Shown here piece after piece: positions 33,417-41,983 of a DNA stretch of 64,000 nucleotides (position 1 is the stretch's first letter; the number at the start of each line of letters is the position of its first letter). Origin of the DNA: Ignatzschineria rhizosphaerae (GTDB lineage: Bacteria > Pseudomonadota > Gammaproteobacteria > Cardiobacteriales > Wohlfahrtiimonadaceae). The translations under genes were made by a program, and so were the position numbers. The stretch covers positions 1,298,501 through 1,362,500 of the forward strand of contig NZ_CP093379.1 of NCBI RefSeq assembly GCF_022655595.1, read 5' to 3'. The notes under the pieces were generated by a model, which worked only from the letters and a program-made list of their open reading frames with translations, searched no databases and was not told where the DNA came from.

Positions 33417-34568
33417 TTAATGCTTTACTTTAAGCGCCACGATATCCGTTACAGGAATTGAGCGATTCCACTCAAAACAGCTTGGGCAGCTCCACTGCAT
33501 CGCTTTTGTGGTATAGCCACATGATTCACAACGAAACTGGGCATATTGGTCTAACATTTCTCTAAAAGTTTTCTCAACCAAAATCGCATCGGTGCGCTCT
33601 TGTTGATATTTTTGTAATTTATTAAGCAGCATCAAACCATAAAGATTACTCTCTTTTTTCAATACTGATTGTAAATACTCAACCCCCGCCTCAAACGATT
33701 CATTAAGAATCAAATAGTGTGTTTTCCATGCTTTTAACACAATATGATCATTCACGATAATGGCTCTCTCTAACCACTCGTAAAAATATTCAGGGCGCTT
33801 ATTACGAGATGATAATTCATAAACCATCGGCGTAATCACCGGCAATAGCTCGGTTCTTTGACCCTCTATTAACATTAAAGATTCTAAAGAGGCCTCAAAA
33901 TTTTCATAATAATAAAGGGCATAAGCTCGTATTAAATTAGCTCTCGCGCAATCATTATCGGCTAACAAAGCTTTATCAAGCCAGAGCGTTAAACGATCTA
34001 AATTAGGCGGATCTTGTAATAACAGCTCTTCTTCTGCTAGCTCACAATAAAGATGCGCCATTTCAGCTAATAGATCTTCTGTTAAAGGGGTTACCTGCTC
34101 CAACATCGCAATGCTTTGTAACCATTCGCGTTGTTGTTTATAGACTTTACTAAGCTTGAGAAGTGCTACTTTTTTATAATTTTCAGATTCTAATAGTAAT
34201 CGTAAGGTACTCTCCCCACGATCGAGCATCCCTGCGGCTAAATAATCTTCAGCAAGGGAGAGATAAACTTTCTCTGTTAAAGCTTTAGTCGGTGCCTCTT
34301 TAATTAGGTATTCATGAAGATTTATCGCTTTATCAATCTCTCCACGTTTTCTAAAAACATCCCCTAACATTAAGCTGAAATTAAGGTTATCAGCATCATA
34401 ATCAGGTGGTAATGTTAAAAGCTGATCATCAACCTCTTGGCTCTCTTCAATAAAATAACGAAGATTAAGATAGCGTAGCATCTTCTGTTTTTTGACATTA
34501 TCTCGCTTAGCTGCCAGCCAACCAATCAAAAGTCCTAATGGTAAAAGAAGCCAAATATATTCAAACAT
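33417..34568 (-). CDS. lapB: Lipopolysaccharide assembly protein LapB (YciM)
   Basis: 383 residues. One N-terminal membrane anchor (YIWLLLPLGLLIGWLAAKR), a long array of TPR helices (about residues 60-340), and a C-terminal rubredoxin-like zinc domain, FRCESCGYTTKAMQWSCPSCFEWNR, with four cysteines. LapB presents LpxC to FtsH for degradation and so balances LPS with phospholipid. It follows lapA by 100 bases on the same strand, as in other gammaproteobacteria. Confidence 0.95.
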   Translation of the reverse strand: MFEYIWLLLPLGLLIGWLAAKRDNVKKQKMLRYLNLRYFIEESQEVDDQLLTLPPDYDADNLNFSLMLGDVFRKRGEIDKAINLHEYLIKEAPTKALTEKVYLSLAEDYLAAGMLDRGESTLRLLLESENYKKVALLKLSKVYKQQREWLQSIAMLEQVTPLTEDLLAEMAHLYCELAEEELLLQDPPNLDRLTLWLDKALLADNDCARANLIRAYALYYYENFEASLESLMLIEGQRTELLPVITPMVYELSSRNKRPEYFYEWLERAIIVNDHIVLKAWKTHYLILNESFEAGVEYLQSVLKKESNLYGLMLLNKLQKYQQERTDAILVEKTFREMLDQYAQFRCESCGYTTKAMQWSCPSCFEWNRSIPVTDIVALKVKH

Positions 34569-34668: not shown

Positions 34669-34968
34669 TTATAAGACATGGGTCTTTCTTTTTAATTCTG
34701 CATTCTCTTTCTCAAGACGTTTTACAGAATTTTTTAACCCCATATTGCTAAAAACACGGGAGATATTTAAAAGTGCTAAAACCCCAATCGTAAAGAGTGC
34801 TCCTATCATAAAAATAACGCAGATAAAAAGAGAGGTATTTAAGGTCGCATCGCCAATAAGATAATTAAAAGAGACCTGGCTATCACGGTTAACATAGAAG
34901 ACAATAAATACGACTGCAAAAATCAGCACCCAAACCGCAATTTTTAGCCAAAAATAGATACGCTTCAT
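34669..34968 (-). CDS. lapA: Lipopolysaccharide assembly protein LapA (YciS)
   Basis: 99 residues from ATG 34968, the usual length; the open frame continues upstream but with non-homologous sequence, and AGGAT lies ahead of this ATG. Two membrane segments (WLKIAVWVLIFAVVFIVFYV and LFICVIFMIGALFTIGVLALL) with NRDSQVSFNYLIGD between, then a coiled-coil cytoplasmic tail (KNSVKRLEKENAELKRK). This is the DUF1049/LapA layout. It partners LapB. Confidence 0.92.
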   Translation of the reverse strand: MKRIYFWLKIAVWVLIFAVVFIVFYVNRDSQVSFNYLIGDATLNTSLFICVIFMIGALFTIGVLALLNISRVFSNMGLKNSVKRLEKENAELKRKTHVL

Positions 34969-35383
34969 AATCTTATCGATCCTTTCCCATGTTCTATATA
35001 TAATAACTGTGTCACTGTAGCATAATTTCATCATGCGAGCTTTGCATTTTACCCTTATCATGGTAAATTATAAAGCGTTATCGAAGATTGAAAATATAGT
35101 AAAGTATCTAACTTCTTAAGTATTCAAAAGACGAAAAGTATTTAATTTGCTAAATCCTCATTTAGCCTTGTCCACCTTAAGAAACATTACTGATCTCATA
35201 GCGCCTTTGATGCATATATTAAAATAACGCCTATGCAACGCTATGCGACCCTACTAAAACTTCTACTATAATAATTTGCTTCACCATATATATAATTTTA
35301 AATGATTAACTAATTGAACGAGAATAAGAACATCATCAATATTCTCTTTTTGATACTGAATATATTATAAAAAACAGACTTAA
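34969..35383. other. Divergent intergenic region, nothing certain
   Basis: A 415-base AT-rich stretch between lapA and the degenerate DEAD-box gene. It must hold two divergent promoters, but I see no strong -35/-10 pair, hairpin or open frame. Confidence 0.4.
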
Positions 35384-37273
35384 ATGAATTCTATGAAAGA
35401 AACGATATTGACACGTTGGAACGATTTATCCGTGGCAGCGAAAGAAATCTTGCGCAATAAAGAACCTATAAACTTCTCTAATACGCCTCCTGCGCTAGAG
35501 CTACTGAGTCAAATTTCTCAACTAACGTCTCAAGATACTACTCAAAAGCAGCTCATTGTAACGTACCATATTAGTGATGCTATTTTTGTTCAAATGTTTC
35601 TTCAAGAAGCGAATCCTGATCTTACTATTGAAGCAATTTTACCTCACAAAATTAATACAGATATAGCTCTTGATACCAATATCATTATTGCCCCGTTCTC
35701 GCTCTTTTTAGTCAATGAGGCATGCCATGAAAAAATGCCACTTACTGAATTTGATACCATTACTTTTGATCAAAAAGTTGCGCCTGAATTTCTCACACAA
35801 TACTTAATGGATCATGAGAGTTATAAAACACTCTTCAATGAAGATCATAAAGCCCTAATTCTCTTTACTGATTTCCAAAGTATTACCTCAGCAATATCGC
35901 CAGTTGAGGCGGTGAATCCTTTAGAGACAATTAAACCTAAAGGCGCCAAAATCTCTTTAGGCAAGTCTCAAGAAAAAGCCAAACAAAAAGAGAACGTTCA
36001 AGAGGACGTGACTGAAAAAACAGAAAAAGAGCTTAAAGCATTAAAAGACTCTAAGAAAAAAGTAGAAGCTACTGATAAAAAAGACGAGGAAGCGTCTATC
36101 AAAGAGCCTGCTAAAAAAGCAACGACCAAAAAAGATCAAAATCAGAGTATTGAAGATGAAAAAGCTATCGAGACCGCTGACCCTTCTGCATTTATTGCGG
36201 TAGTTGCCAGAAATGTACAACGCCAATATATTCGTGATTACATCCGTGAACATAATCTACAACATGTCTTAATCGTTACCCACAATCGTCAATCAGCGAG
36301 ATTATTAGAAAAATATCTCTATCGTGCTCGTATTCGTAGCCGCGTTGTTCACGAAAAAATTGATGATGAAACTGCAACAAGCCTTTTTGATCGCTATAAC
36401 GATGGTCAGTTTACAGCAATGATTTTAATGCACCGAGTGGTAGAGGAACTTGCTGCAAAAATTCAAAAATGTGATGCGGTTATTTTCTTAGATTTCCCAA
36501 CGGTATATTCAGAATATGCAGAGCGCTTAAATTTTGTCCAAACAAACTTTAAGCCGCAGCACTTTATCTCAATCTCAACAGAGAATGATAGAGCATGGGT
36601 GCAAGCATTATTAGAAGAGTACCCTGATCTTAATCTACCTATTGAAGAGATTGATATTAAGCCCCCTAAAAAGCGCGACAATAAACCAAAGCCTAAACAC
36701 GATAAAGCGCAGACAGTAGAGGCTGAAAATATCTCAGAAACACCTGATGCAACAGCTGTGGAAGAAACCTCTCCTCAAGAAAGTGAGAACGAAAAAGAAG
36801 ATAATCCTCGTGATCGCCGAAACAATCGTCGTAATCAAGGCCGTCAAAATCGTAATGATCAGCGTAATGAACGTAATAATGATCGCCGTGACAATAAACC
36901 ACGTAATAATCGTAGAAGACAAGAACAAGCAGCAAATAGCTCACAAAATGAGGGAAATCAGGAGTTTGGGGATAGCCAGAGCGATTTCTTTAGTGCTAAC
37001 CAAGATGAGATTGTGAATCACAACCGCCTACCTTTTGAAGCAGGATCATTTGAAGCCAATATCGCTAGAGAAAATCGCCGTCGTGGACGCGATGCCTTTA
37101 ATACCCCTGGCGGTATTGGTCAATCAACAAATGGTAACTTCTTGCAAAATATCACTCAAGGATTTAACCAAAACGGTAATAGTAACTCGCAACCTCAAAA
37201 TAGACGTAGCAACAGCAGTAATAACAACAATAATAATCGCAATCGTCCAAGAAAAAATAACCGTAAGAAGTAA
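35384..37273 (+). CDS. Degenerate DEAD-box RNA-helicase-like protein with Arg/Asn-rich tail
   Basis: 629 residues. Residues 1-165 look like a RecA-like first domain but no Walker A (GxGKT) or DEAD box is present. A Lys/Glu-rich linker covers about 185-265. Residues 267-400 resemble helicase domain 2: HVLIVTHNRQSARLLEKYLYR, then VIFLDFPTVYSEYAERLNFVQ where motif V/VI (D.P..YVHR.GR) would be, but the arginine finger region is lost. From about 425 the chain is disordered and rich in Arg, Asn and Gln (RNNRRNQGRQNRNDQ), with poly-Asn near the end, like RNA-binding tails of RhlB/RhlE-type helicases. So it probably binds RNA without ATPase activity. greB follows 68 bases later on the same strand. 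Confidence 0.7.
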   Translation: MNSMKETILTRWNDLSVAAKEILRNKEPINFSNTPPALELLSQISQLTSQDTTQKQLIVTYHISDAIFVQMFLQEANPDLTIEAILPHKINTDIALDTNIIIAPFSLFLVNEACHEKMPLTEFDTITFDQKVAPEFLTQYLMDHESYKTLFNEDHKALILFTDFQSITSAISPVEAVNPLETIKPKGAKISLGKSQEKAKQKENVQEDVTEKTEKELKALKDSKKKVEATDKKDEEASIKEPAKKATTKKDQNQSIEDEKAIETADPSAFIAVVARNVQRQYIRDYIREHNLQHVLIVTHNRQSARLLEKYLYRARIRSRVVHEKIDDETATSLFDRYNDGQFTAMILMHRVVEELAAKIQKCDAVIFLDFPTVYSEYAERLNFVQTNFKPQHFISISTENDRAWVQALLEEYPDLNLPIEEIDIKPPKKRDNKPKPKHDKAQTVEAENISETPDATAVEETSPQESENEKEDNPRDRRNNRRNQGRQNRNDQRNERNNDRRDNKPRNNRRRQEQAANSSQNEGNQEFGDSQSDFFSANQDEIVNHNRLPFEAGSFEANIARENRRRGRDAFNTPGGIGQSTNGNFLQNITQGFNQNGNSNSQPQNRRSNSSNNNNNNRNRPRKNNRKK

Positions 37274-37341: not shown

Positions 37342-37857
37342 ATGGGGATTAACCTTATTACGCAAGAAGGGATGGAGATTCTACAAAAAGAACTCGATTT
37401 TTTATGGCGCATAGAACGCCCTGAGATCACACAAAAAGTGACTTGGGCCGCAGGATTAGGCGATCGTTCTGAAAATGCGGATTATCAATTTAATAAACAA
37501 AAACTTAGAGAAATTGATCGACGAGTTCGGCATCTTCGTAAGCGATTAGAAGTTCTTCGCCCTGTCCCTTATTCACCACAACAAGAAGGGAAAGTCTTCT
37601 TTGGCGCTTGGGTAAAATTAGTTGATGATGAAGATAATACACTCTTCTTTCGTATCGTTGGTGCTGATGAGATTGCGCATCATCAAGATTATTCATCTAT
37701 TAATTCACCGATTGCTAAATCCTGTCTTGGCAAAGAGATTGATGATGAGGTCTATGTACAGACAGAGCTTTTAAAAAAACGTTGGTATATTGATAATATC
37801 TTTTATGGTGCACCGGAATTAGTGAAAGAAAAAATCATTGCTGCTAAAGAGAAATAG
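37342..37857 (+). CDS. greB: Transcription elongation factor GreB
   Basis: 171 residues. N-terminal coiled coil with the acidic tip motif GLGDRSENADYQFNKQKLREIDRRVRHLRKRLE (DRSENADY holds the catalytic acidic residues), then the FKBP-like C-terminal domain (VFFGAWVKLVDDED ... ISSINSPIAKSCLGKEIDDEV with minor variation). It enters the RNA polymerase secondary channel and stimulates cleavage of backtracked RNA. AAAGGA lies ahead of the ATG. The DEAD-box-like gene is just upstream and may be co-transcribed, linking both to RNA metabolism. Confidence 0.95.
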   Translation: MGINLITQEGMEILQKELDFLWRIERPEITQKVTWAAGLGDRSENADYQFNKQKLREIDRRVRHLRKRLEVLRPVPYSPQQEGKVFFGAWVKLVDDEDNTLFFRIVGADEIAHHQDYSSINSPIAKSCLGKEIDDEVYVQTELLKKRWYIDNIFYGAPELVKEKIIAAKEK

Positions 37858-40083: not shown

Positions 40084-40782
40084 CTATTTCTTTAAAAAGA
40101 CTAAATCCCAAACACCGTGACCTAAACGAATCCCGCGCGCTTCAAACTTTGTTGGCAAACGATGCGTTGGATTTTCAACAAATCCTTCCACACTATTTTC
40201 ATAATCTGGCGCTGCTTGCATCACTTCCATCATATGCTCAGCATAAGGTTCCCAATCAGTTGCTAAGCAGAGTCTGCCACCTTTTTGGAGTTTTTGAGCA
40301 ATAAGCGCAACAAATTCTGGCTGAATAATACGGCGCTTATTATGTTTTTTCTTATGCCAAGGATCGGGGAAAAATACTTGCACACATTCCAAACTCCCAT
40401 CGGGAATACAATTTTTTAAAATATGTACCGCATCATAATCAATGGCACGAATATTTTTTAAATCACGCGCCTCCACATCTAATAAAAGACGACCAACCCC
40501 CGGGCGGTGAACTTCTAACCCTAGGAAATCACGCATAGGATCTGCTTCTGCCATATTAGAAAATGACATACCATCACCAAAGCCGATCTCTAAAGTTCGA
40601 GGTGTACCAGTGCGGCCAAATAAAGCATCAAGATCCCAAAGCCCATCAACCTTATCATGCGTAATAAGATAAGGACTTTCTGCTAAGATACGCTCTTGCC
40701 CTTTCGTTAAGCGCCCTTCTCTTTTGACAAATGAGCGAATCGCACGAAGCGGTCTATTACTGTTGTTTTCTGTATTTTCCAT
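40084..40782 (-). CDS. trmB: tRNA (guanine-N7-)-methyltransferase
   Basis: 232 residues from ATG 40782. SAM-binding motif [12 protein letters not shown] around residues 62-73, then [10 protein letters not shown], the family motif [18 protein letters not shown] at about residues 137-154, and [12 protein letters not shown]. It methylates G46 in the variable loop of tRNAs. The start overlaps the end of ispG by 26 bases, so the two are translationally linked; this gene order is unusual for E. coli but gives a simple two-gene operon here. Confidence 0.96.
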
Positions 40783-41983
40783 CAATATATTCGTTTATTA
40801 TCTGTTTAAATTCATTAGCGATATTCTCGCCTTTTAATGTTACTGAGCGCTCACCATCTACATAAACTGGCGCGACAGGTTTTTCCCCATTTCCCGGCAA
40901 GCTAATACCAATATTAGCCATTTTTGACTCGCCAGGGCCATTAACAATACAGCCCATGACGGCAACGACCATCTTTTCAACGCCATCATATTCTGTTTTC
41001 CAAGTGGGCATATTATTATCAATATAAGATTGTATCTCTTGTGCTAGATATTGGAAATCATCACTACTAGTACGTCCACAACCTGGGCATGCAACCACTT
41101 TTGGCGTAAAAGCGCGGATCTGAAGACTTTGCAAAATCTCTTTCCCCACTAATACTTCTTCAGTTCTCGGAGCATTGGGCTCTGGCGTTAATGAGATACG
41201 AATCGTATCACCAATGCCTTGCTGAAGCAGAACGGCTAAGGCTGACGCTGAAGCGACCGTTCCTTTCATCCCCATTCCCGCTTCTGTTAAACCTAAATGA
41301 AGTGGTACATTTGTTTTACCCGCAATATCTTGATAAACCTTAATGAGCTGTTGGCTTTGACTTACTTTGACAGAGAGAATAATACTCTCATCTGTCATTC
41401 CGATATCTTTTGCAAAAGCGATACTTTCAAGCGCTGAAACAATCATCGCTTCACACATCAATTCATCATTGGATAAAGGCATCGCCTTTTTTAAATTCTC
41501 ATCTAATAGGCGCTTTAAAACCTCAGGATCTAAGCTTCCCCAGTTAACGCCGATACGGACAGGTTTTTGATGCTTTAAGGCTTCTTCCACGATTAACGTA
41601 AACTGCTCATCTTTACGGGCGCCTCGCCCCACATTTCCTGGATTAATCCGTAGCTTAGCAAGCGCTTTAGCGCAAGCTGGCTCTGCCTGTAAAAGACGAT
41701 GACCATTAAAGTGAAAATCCCCAACAACCGGCGTTGTATAGCCTAATGTATCGAGCTTTTCGACAATAAACGGTACAGCTTTTGCCGCAGCTTCAGTATT
41801 TACCGTCACTCGTACTAATTCAGATCCTGCATCGGCAAGCTCAATAATTTGAGAAACTGTGGCATCTACATCTTCTGTATTGGTGTTCGTCATCGATTGC
41901 ACACGGATCGGATACTCTGATCCAATTCCGATATTGCCCACCATTACTTGGCTTGTAGGTCGTCTTTTAATGGTAAAAACCAT
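40757..41983 (-). CDS. ispG: 4-hydroxy-3-methylbut-2-en-1-yl diphosphate synthase (IspG/GcpE)
   Basis: 408 residues. TIM-barrel part from [18 protein letters not shown], with [10 protein letters not shown], and the [4Fe-4S] part with CPGCGRTS at about 293-300 and [18 protein letters not shown] near the C-terminus, which supply the three cysteines and the glutamate ligand. It performs the sixth step of the MEP isoprenoid pathway. AAAGGA lies ahead of the ATG. trmB follows with overlap. Confidence 0.97.

Follow-up and report, generated by a model that had tools for sequence, protein, structure and literature searches.

Pseudo-enzymes are well studied among kinases. Bacterial helicase domains that have lost their ATPase motifs and become binding modules include the UvrB-like module of Mfd, AddB, and RecC; these differ from the protein described here in that they belong to other helicase families, are DNA-directed, and are parts of larger enzymes. 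Among DEAD-box proteins, Utp25 has been called the first fully validated pseudohelicase (PMC9539457), and our literature search for bacterial DEAD-box pseudohelicases found no example. In Pseudomonas, the C-terminal region of RhlE2 was reported to be both necessary and sufficient for RNase E binding (PMC11964227).

The window (the whole stretch of 64,000 nucleotides analyzed here) comes from the genome of Ignatzschineria rhizosphaerae, a single contig of 3.07 Mb, and encodes a pseudohelicase: a protein that keeps a predicted helicase fold, has lost the catalytic motifs, and is under purifying selection. Its closest analogue in kind is Utp25/Def of the SSU-processome, which shares the dead two-domain DEAD-box fold and a disordered arm, and whose Utp25_C profile weakly matches 8/16 orthologues of the window protein. 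However, Utp25 is eukaryotic, its disordered arm is N-terminal, and the two proteins most likely lost activity independently. RhlE, the closest sequence relative of domain 2, also has two RecA domains, and the RhlE of this genome carries an Arg/Asn-rich tail. In contrast to RhlE, the pseudohelicase lacks the Q motif, P-loop, DEAD, SAT, motif V, and arginine fingers, has a 96-aa linker and its own C-terminal motif, and is kept where RhlE is lost. RhlE2 of Pseudomonas aeruginosa belongs to the RhlE clade and uses its C-terminal region to bind RNase E (PMC11964227). It is, however, an RNA helicase with a motor, and a search of 273 other gammaproteobacterial genomes found no match to the C-terminal motif of the pseudohelicase. 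The fold, motif loss, selection, distribution, and single origin presented below were all established by computation.

Gene and Protein Organization

The gene and its neighbors are as follows, with the evidence in brackets.

33417..34568, minus strand: lapB-like gene, divergent neighbor (Pfam Zn_ribbon_LapB; locus maps)
34669..35061, minus strand: lapA-like gene, divergent neighbor, kept in the pseudohelicase-carrying genera (Pfam LapA_dom)
35384..37273, plus strand: pseudohelicase gene, probably RhlE-derived (intact ORF of 629 aa)
35489..35893, plus strand: degenerate, putative RecA-like domain 1, residues ~36-170 (hhalign register, AlphaFold2, Foldseek, VIA)
35894..36181, plus strand: Lys/Glu-rich linker, residues 171-266, predicted disordered and poorly conserved (composition, pLDDT, dN/dS)
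36182..36670, plus strand: RecA-like domain 2, residues ~267-429, predicted Helicase_C fold (Pfam Helicase_C, VIA, dN/dS, comparison with RhlE)
36671..37000, plus strand: Asn/Arg/Gln-rich tail preceding the C-terminal motif, predicted disordered (composition, pLDDT 28-45)
37001..37102, plus strand: conserved C-terminal motif, residues ~540-573 (alignment, dN/dS, no match among 273 other gammaproteobacterial genomes)
37342..37857, plus strand: greB, 171 aa, starting 69 bp past the pseudohelicase gene, in the same orientation; a lineage-specific neighbor (NCBIfam GreB)

The linker contains 22 Lys and 15 Glu among its 96 residues, and the region 431-629 contains 42 Asn, 28 Arg, and 17 Gln among 199. 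The net charge is no more than +8 in the tail and -12 in the acidic domain 1, which counts against the adaptor role proposed below. The Lys/Glu-rich linker and the long Arg/Asn/Gln-rich tail had both been described in the original prediction, and composition bears this out, with both segments predicted to be disordered.

An AT-rich gap of 322 bp (35062-35383) lies upstream of the gene. In the Ignatzschineria copies, no clear Shine-Dalgarno sequence precedes the start codon, and the upstream region yielded neither a conserved leader RNA nor an Rfam match at the gathering score. Elsewhere in the window, the listed ORFs of ispG and of the methyltransferase-like gene that follows it overlap by 29 bp (40757-40785), the latter ORF having a TTG start.

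Helicase Motifs and Predicted Fold

Walker A (AxTGxGKT), DEAD, SAT, and HRxGRxxR are all missing in register from 16/16 full-length orthologues, as had been proposed for the window protein with respect to Walker A, DEAD, and the arginine finger. Of motif VI, every copy retains the first arginine (R381) and nothing more. The sequence AKISLGKS at residue 188 is a loose P-loop match; it falls in the linker and is found in this species only. Domain 1 lacks the Q motif and the P-loop strand. Its relics in the window protein are TYHISDAI (Ia), APFSLF (Ib), FDQKV (II), and FTDF (III), and relics of motifs II (IDEAI) and III (ASDF) persist in two species. Aligned with hhalign against a profile of active DEAD-box proteins, domain 1 preserves the order Ia, Ib, II, III and scores 22.3, a value reached by 2/200 shuffles (null 13.9 +/- 2.3).

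Against the same kind of profile, domain 2 scores 109 (shuffled-column null 14.8 +/- 2.7). Pfam Helicase_C is the sole significant Pfam match of the window protein, at 23.9 bits against a cut-off of 23.5 over residues 281-380, and it matches all 16 orthologues (best E 4.7e-11). The NCBIfam family cut-offs are missed (RhlE1, 14.5 bits vs 750; RhlB, 16.8 vs 564), and phmmer found no match to the pseudohelicase among PDB sequences. Motifs IVa, V, and VI are destroyed in domain 2. Twenty-two of its positions are invariant in the 16 copies, and 11 of these hold a residue absent there from the ten RhlE compared. The invariant arginines are at 280, 284, 302, 320, and 381, and new invariant residues are Tyr282, Tyr313, Phe368, and Trp405; Y282, R284, R302, Y313, R320, F368, and W405 are among the 11 non-RhlE positions. 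Judged by its sequence, domain 2 has been rebuilt and then fixed, rather than merely eroded.

Structure models were built from six Ignatzschineria sequences only, which lowers their confidence. In the AlphaFold2 model, pLDDT is mostly 72-91 in domain 2, moderate in domain 1, ~30 in the linker, and 28-45 in the tail; residues 1-175 modeled alone reach a mean of 66, and mostly 63-84 over residues 51-170. With both domains as query, Foldseek matched the DEAD-box chains of CshA (E 1.6e-11 and 4.0e-11) and DbpA (8.6e-11), as well as DDX21. Domain 2 superposes on Hera (3i32) with a VIA Z of 18.1 and an rmsd of 2.3 over 151 residues. Domain 1 alone matched the N-domains of SF2 proteins (RIG-I, MDA5, DbpA, Hera, CshA) in Foldseek at E 6.5e-4 and weaker, and in VIA its Z reached 10.9 (rmsd 3.5 over 136 residues). 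According to these models, tandem RecA-like domains of the DEAD-box type are present, the assignment of domain 1 combining a moderate-confidence model with a marginal sequence match. The earlier view that domain 2 still resembles helicase domain 2 thus agrees with Helicase_C in all 16 copies and with the Hera superposition, and structure prediction and structural search returned RecA-like folds for both domains.

Selection and the C-Terminal Motif

In comparisons of pairs, dN/dS ranges from 0.009 to 0.037 for domain 2 and from 0 to 0.027 for the C-terminal motif; for the linker it lies mostly at 0.1-0.8. Some pairs have nearly saturated synonymous sites, which makes these values rough, but the moderately divergent pairs (L038/L042, L045/L048, L047/L049) agree. 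As yardsticks, the same genomes give comparably low values for greB (0.022-0.124), ispG (0.012-0.025), and domain 2 of the active RhlE (0.022-0.060), and 0.041-0.112 for lapB. The reading frame is open in all 16 full-length copies. The gene is under strong purifying selection, and the original prediction was right that a frame intact for 629 codons is kept by selection. The C-terminal motif reads IVNxNRxPFxxxSFEAxxxRxNxxR, with the invariant core IVNxNRxPF...SFEA...N..R.

Distribution and Gene Neighborhood

The family is Ignatzschineriaceae, in the order Cardiobacteriales of the Gammaproteobacteria; we designate its genera beyond Ignatzschineria g2, g3, and g4. Orthologues are found in 17/18 family genomes: 9/9 Ignatzschineria (the window's own included), so that the expected conservation in relatives was seen, 2/2 g4, and 6/6 g2. 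One g2 copy is a fragment at a contig end, beside lapB; the other 16 are full-length. The pseudohelicase was not found in the single g3 genome, which is 80% complete and in which a DnaB-like helicase gene adjoins lapA, nor in 14 genomes from the other families of the order. The constant neighbors of the pseudohelicase are the divergent genes lapA-lapB. An active helicase beside lapA-lapB in the order's other families was rejected as a candidate, with no match to the pseudohelicase profile there. A mobile origin of the pseudohelicase is unsupported, with no plasmid or phage matches.

The greB gene of the window is intact, and its product scores 200.5 bits with NCBIfam GreB (cut-offs 171-188). 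Downstream of the pseudohelicase, g4 and those Ignatzschineria loci that were read carry greB or its 5' fragment; in g2, greB lies on contigs other than that of the pseudohelicase. In three Ignatzschineria genomes (G001, G007, G008), the adjoining greB is cut to its first 47 codons while the pseudohelicase is intact. Within the order, strong GreB matches came from this family only, the eight genomes tested from other families scoring at GreA level (E 1e-14 to 1e-18).

An Element in greB

As a separate observation, greB is split after codon 47 (window equivalent ~37480) in G001, G007, G008, and G016. In G007 and G016, its 3' part adjoins genes for a tyrosine recombinase (445 aa), an Integrase_2 protein (906 aa), and a 204-aa protein. 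The same block holds a complete second greB (52-54% identical) and genes for Cas7fv, Cas5fv, and Cas6f, followed by 60-bp-spaced repeats (9 overlapping register copies in L151, 2 in L150). Beside the Cas6f gene and the repeats, an ORF of 415-432 aa without a Pfam match runs on the opposite strand (L150:5441-6688, L151:2467-3765), and an MmeI-like restriction-modification gene is next in L150. Neither Cas1 nor Cas3 was recognized among the genes scanned in the block. The loci concerned are L150:5441-15212, L151:2467-12697, L043, L044, L037, and L152-L155. This is probably an integrating element, a mobile type I-Fv CRISPR carrier that would insert into greB, breaking an essential-type gene, and supply a substitute copy; its pieces lie on separate contigs.

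Origin and Relation to RhlE

Four active DEAD-box proteins are encoded in this genome, RhlB-, RhlE-, DbpA-, and CsdA-like; RhlE and DbpA are above an NCBIfam cut-off, and the RhlB- and CsdA-like proteins were named by best match. A domain-2 profile of the pseudohelicase gives 62 bits with RhlE, 29 with RhlB, 20 with DbpA, and 14 with the CsdA-like protein of this genome, and 53-62, 21-43, 16-29, and 14-27 bits, respectively, across the family. In the tree, the pseudohelicases form one clade (support 100/100), showing a single origin. Since domain 2 is closest to RhlE, we most likely see a catalytically dead paralogue of RhlE. A long branch separates the clade from the active helicases; descent from RhlE is accordingly likely but short of proven, and the attachment to RhlE is less secure than the clade itself.

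An active RhlE (at least 59% identity) is encoded in 10/18 family genomes and missing in 8, whose completeness is 94-100% (G002, G006, G007, G009, G011, G012, G013, and G016); other DEAD-box proteins persist in these 8. The RhlE-less genomes belong to g1, g2, and g4, a scatter that suggests several RhlE losses within the family. INDEPENDENCE from RhlE is seen in the retention of the pseudohelicase in 8/8 family genomes without an active RhlE; it therefore cannot serve only to regulate RhlE.

Proposed Role and Alternatives

We propose, with a probability of roughly 0.55, that the protein is a non-catalytic RNA/RNP adaptor that arose from an RhlE duplicate and uses its C-terminal motif for docking. 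Even when it turns over no ATP, a DEAD-box protein can still bind or bridge, and an adaptor would be the simplest role; RNA binding, docking, and the partner are what we infer. The duplicate would have lost ATP binding and hydrolysis before Ignatzschineria, g2, and g4 split, and would then have been retained for a non-catalytic job. The rebuilt RecA2, with its new invariant Arg, Tyr, Phe, and Trp and no ATP-driven closing, would hold RNA or RNP together with the Asn/Arg-rich tail, independently of an ATP cycle, while the IVNxNRxPFxxxSFEAxxxRxN motif would dock the protein to a fixed RNA-processing partner. Candidate partners are RNase E and a ribosome precursor, and the data are compatible with a role in either RNA decay or ribosome assembly. 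Of the two, RNase E comes first because the C-terminal region of RhlE2 binds it (PMC11964227), and by this analogy a degradosome role is possible. A stand-in for a missing RNase E scaffold was considered and rejected: RNase E frames are 959-1336 aa in the 10/10 genomes tested, and since RNase E here keeps its long C-terminal region, the pseudohelicase is not replacing an absent scaffold.

Among the other explanations is an assembly factor for the ribosome, similar in kind to Utp25: a catalytically dead DEAD-box protein that would bind an assembly intermediate and bring in active factors or set their position. The part that RhlE plays in E. coli ribosome maturation counts in favor of such a factor. 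So do the weak Utp25_C matches (best E 4.3e-4; the window protein itself is not matched) and the precedent of Utp25, a pseudohelicase that is essential for ribosome assembly although its DEAD-box motifs are dispensable (PMC9539457). However, independent decay of two Helicase_C domains may be all that lies behind the Utp25_C match, and no link to ribosome genes was seen. We regard this role as rather unlikely. A factor acting with GreB on RNA polymerase, as the original prediction had suggested, would fit the same-strand placement 69 bp apart and the recurrence of greB, or its 5' fragment, beside the gene. The special link with GreB did not hold up, however, with greB on other contigs in g2 and reduced to 47 codons next to an intact pseudohelicase in three Ignatzschineria; such a factor now has only a slim chance.

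A role as inhibitor of the active RhlE paralogue, or as its obligate partner, would be in keeping with RhlE ancestry, but retention in the 8 RhlE-less genomes means that RhlE is not the sole target. Other DEAD-box proteins could still be targets, and on balance this function is very improbable. As for a decaying pseudogene or an artifact, which the loss of all catalytic motifs might suggest, it is refuted by the selection data, along with the open frames of all 16 full-length copies and the fixed position beside lapA-lapB.

For the adaptor, we tentatively suggest, as something that may well prove wrong, that this lineage-specific pseudohelicase gained a new motif for binding a partner and took over from RhlE a non-catalytic role, either in RNA decay or in ribosome assembly, and that RhlE then became dispensable and was lost several times. 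The protein is a real, strongly selected, and new bacterial instance of a rare kind. Because it is shared by three genera and has persisted better than the active RhlE, it offers a direct test of whether the clamp or scaffold role of DEAD-box proteins is separable from the motor.
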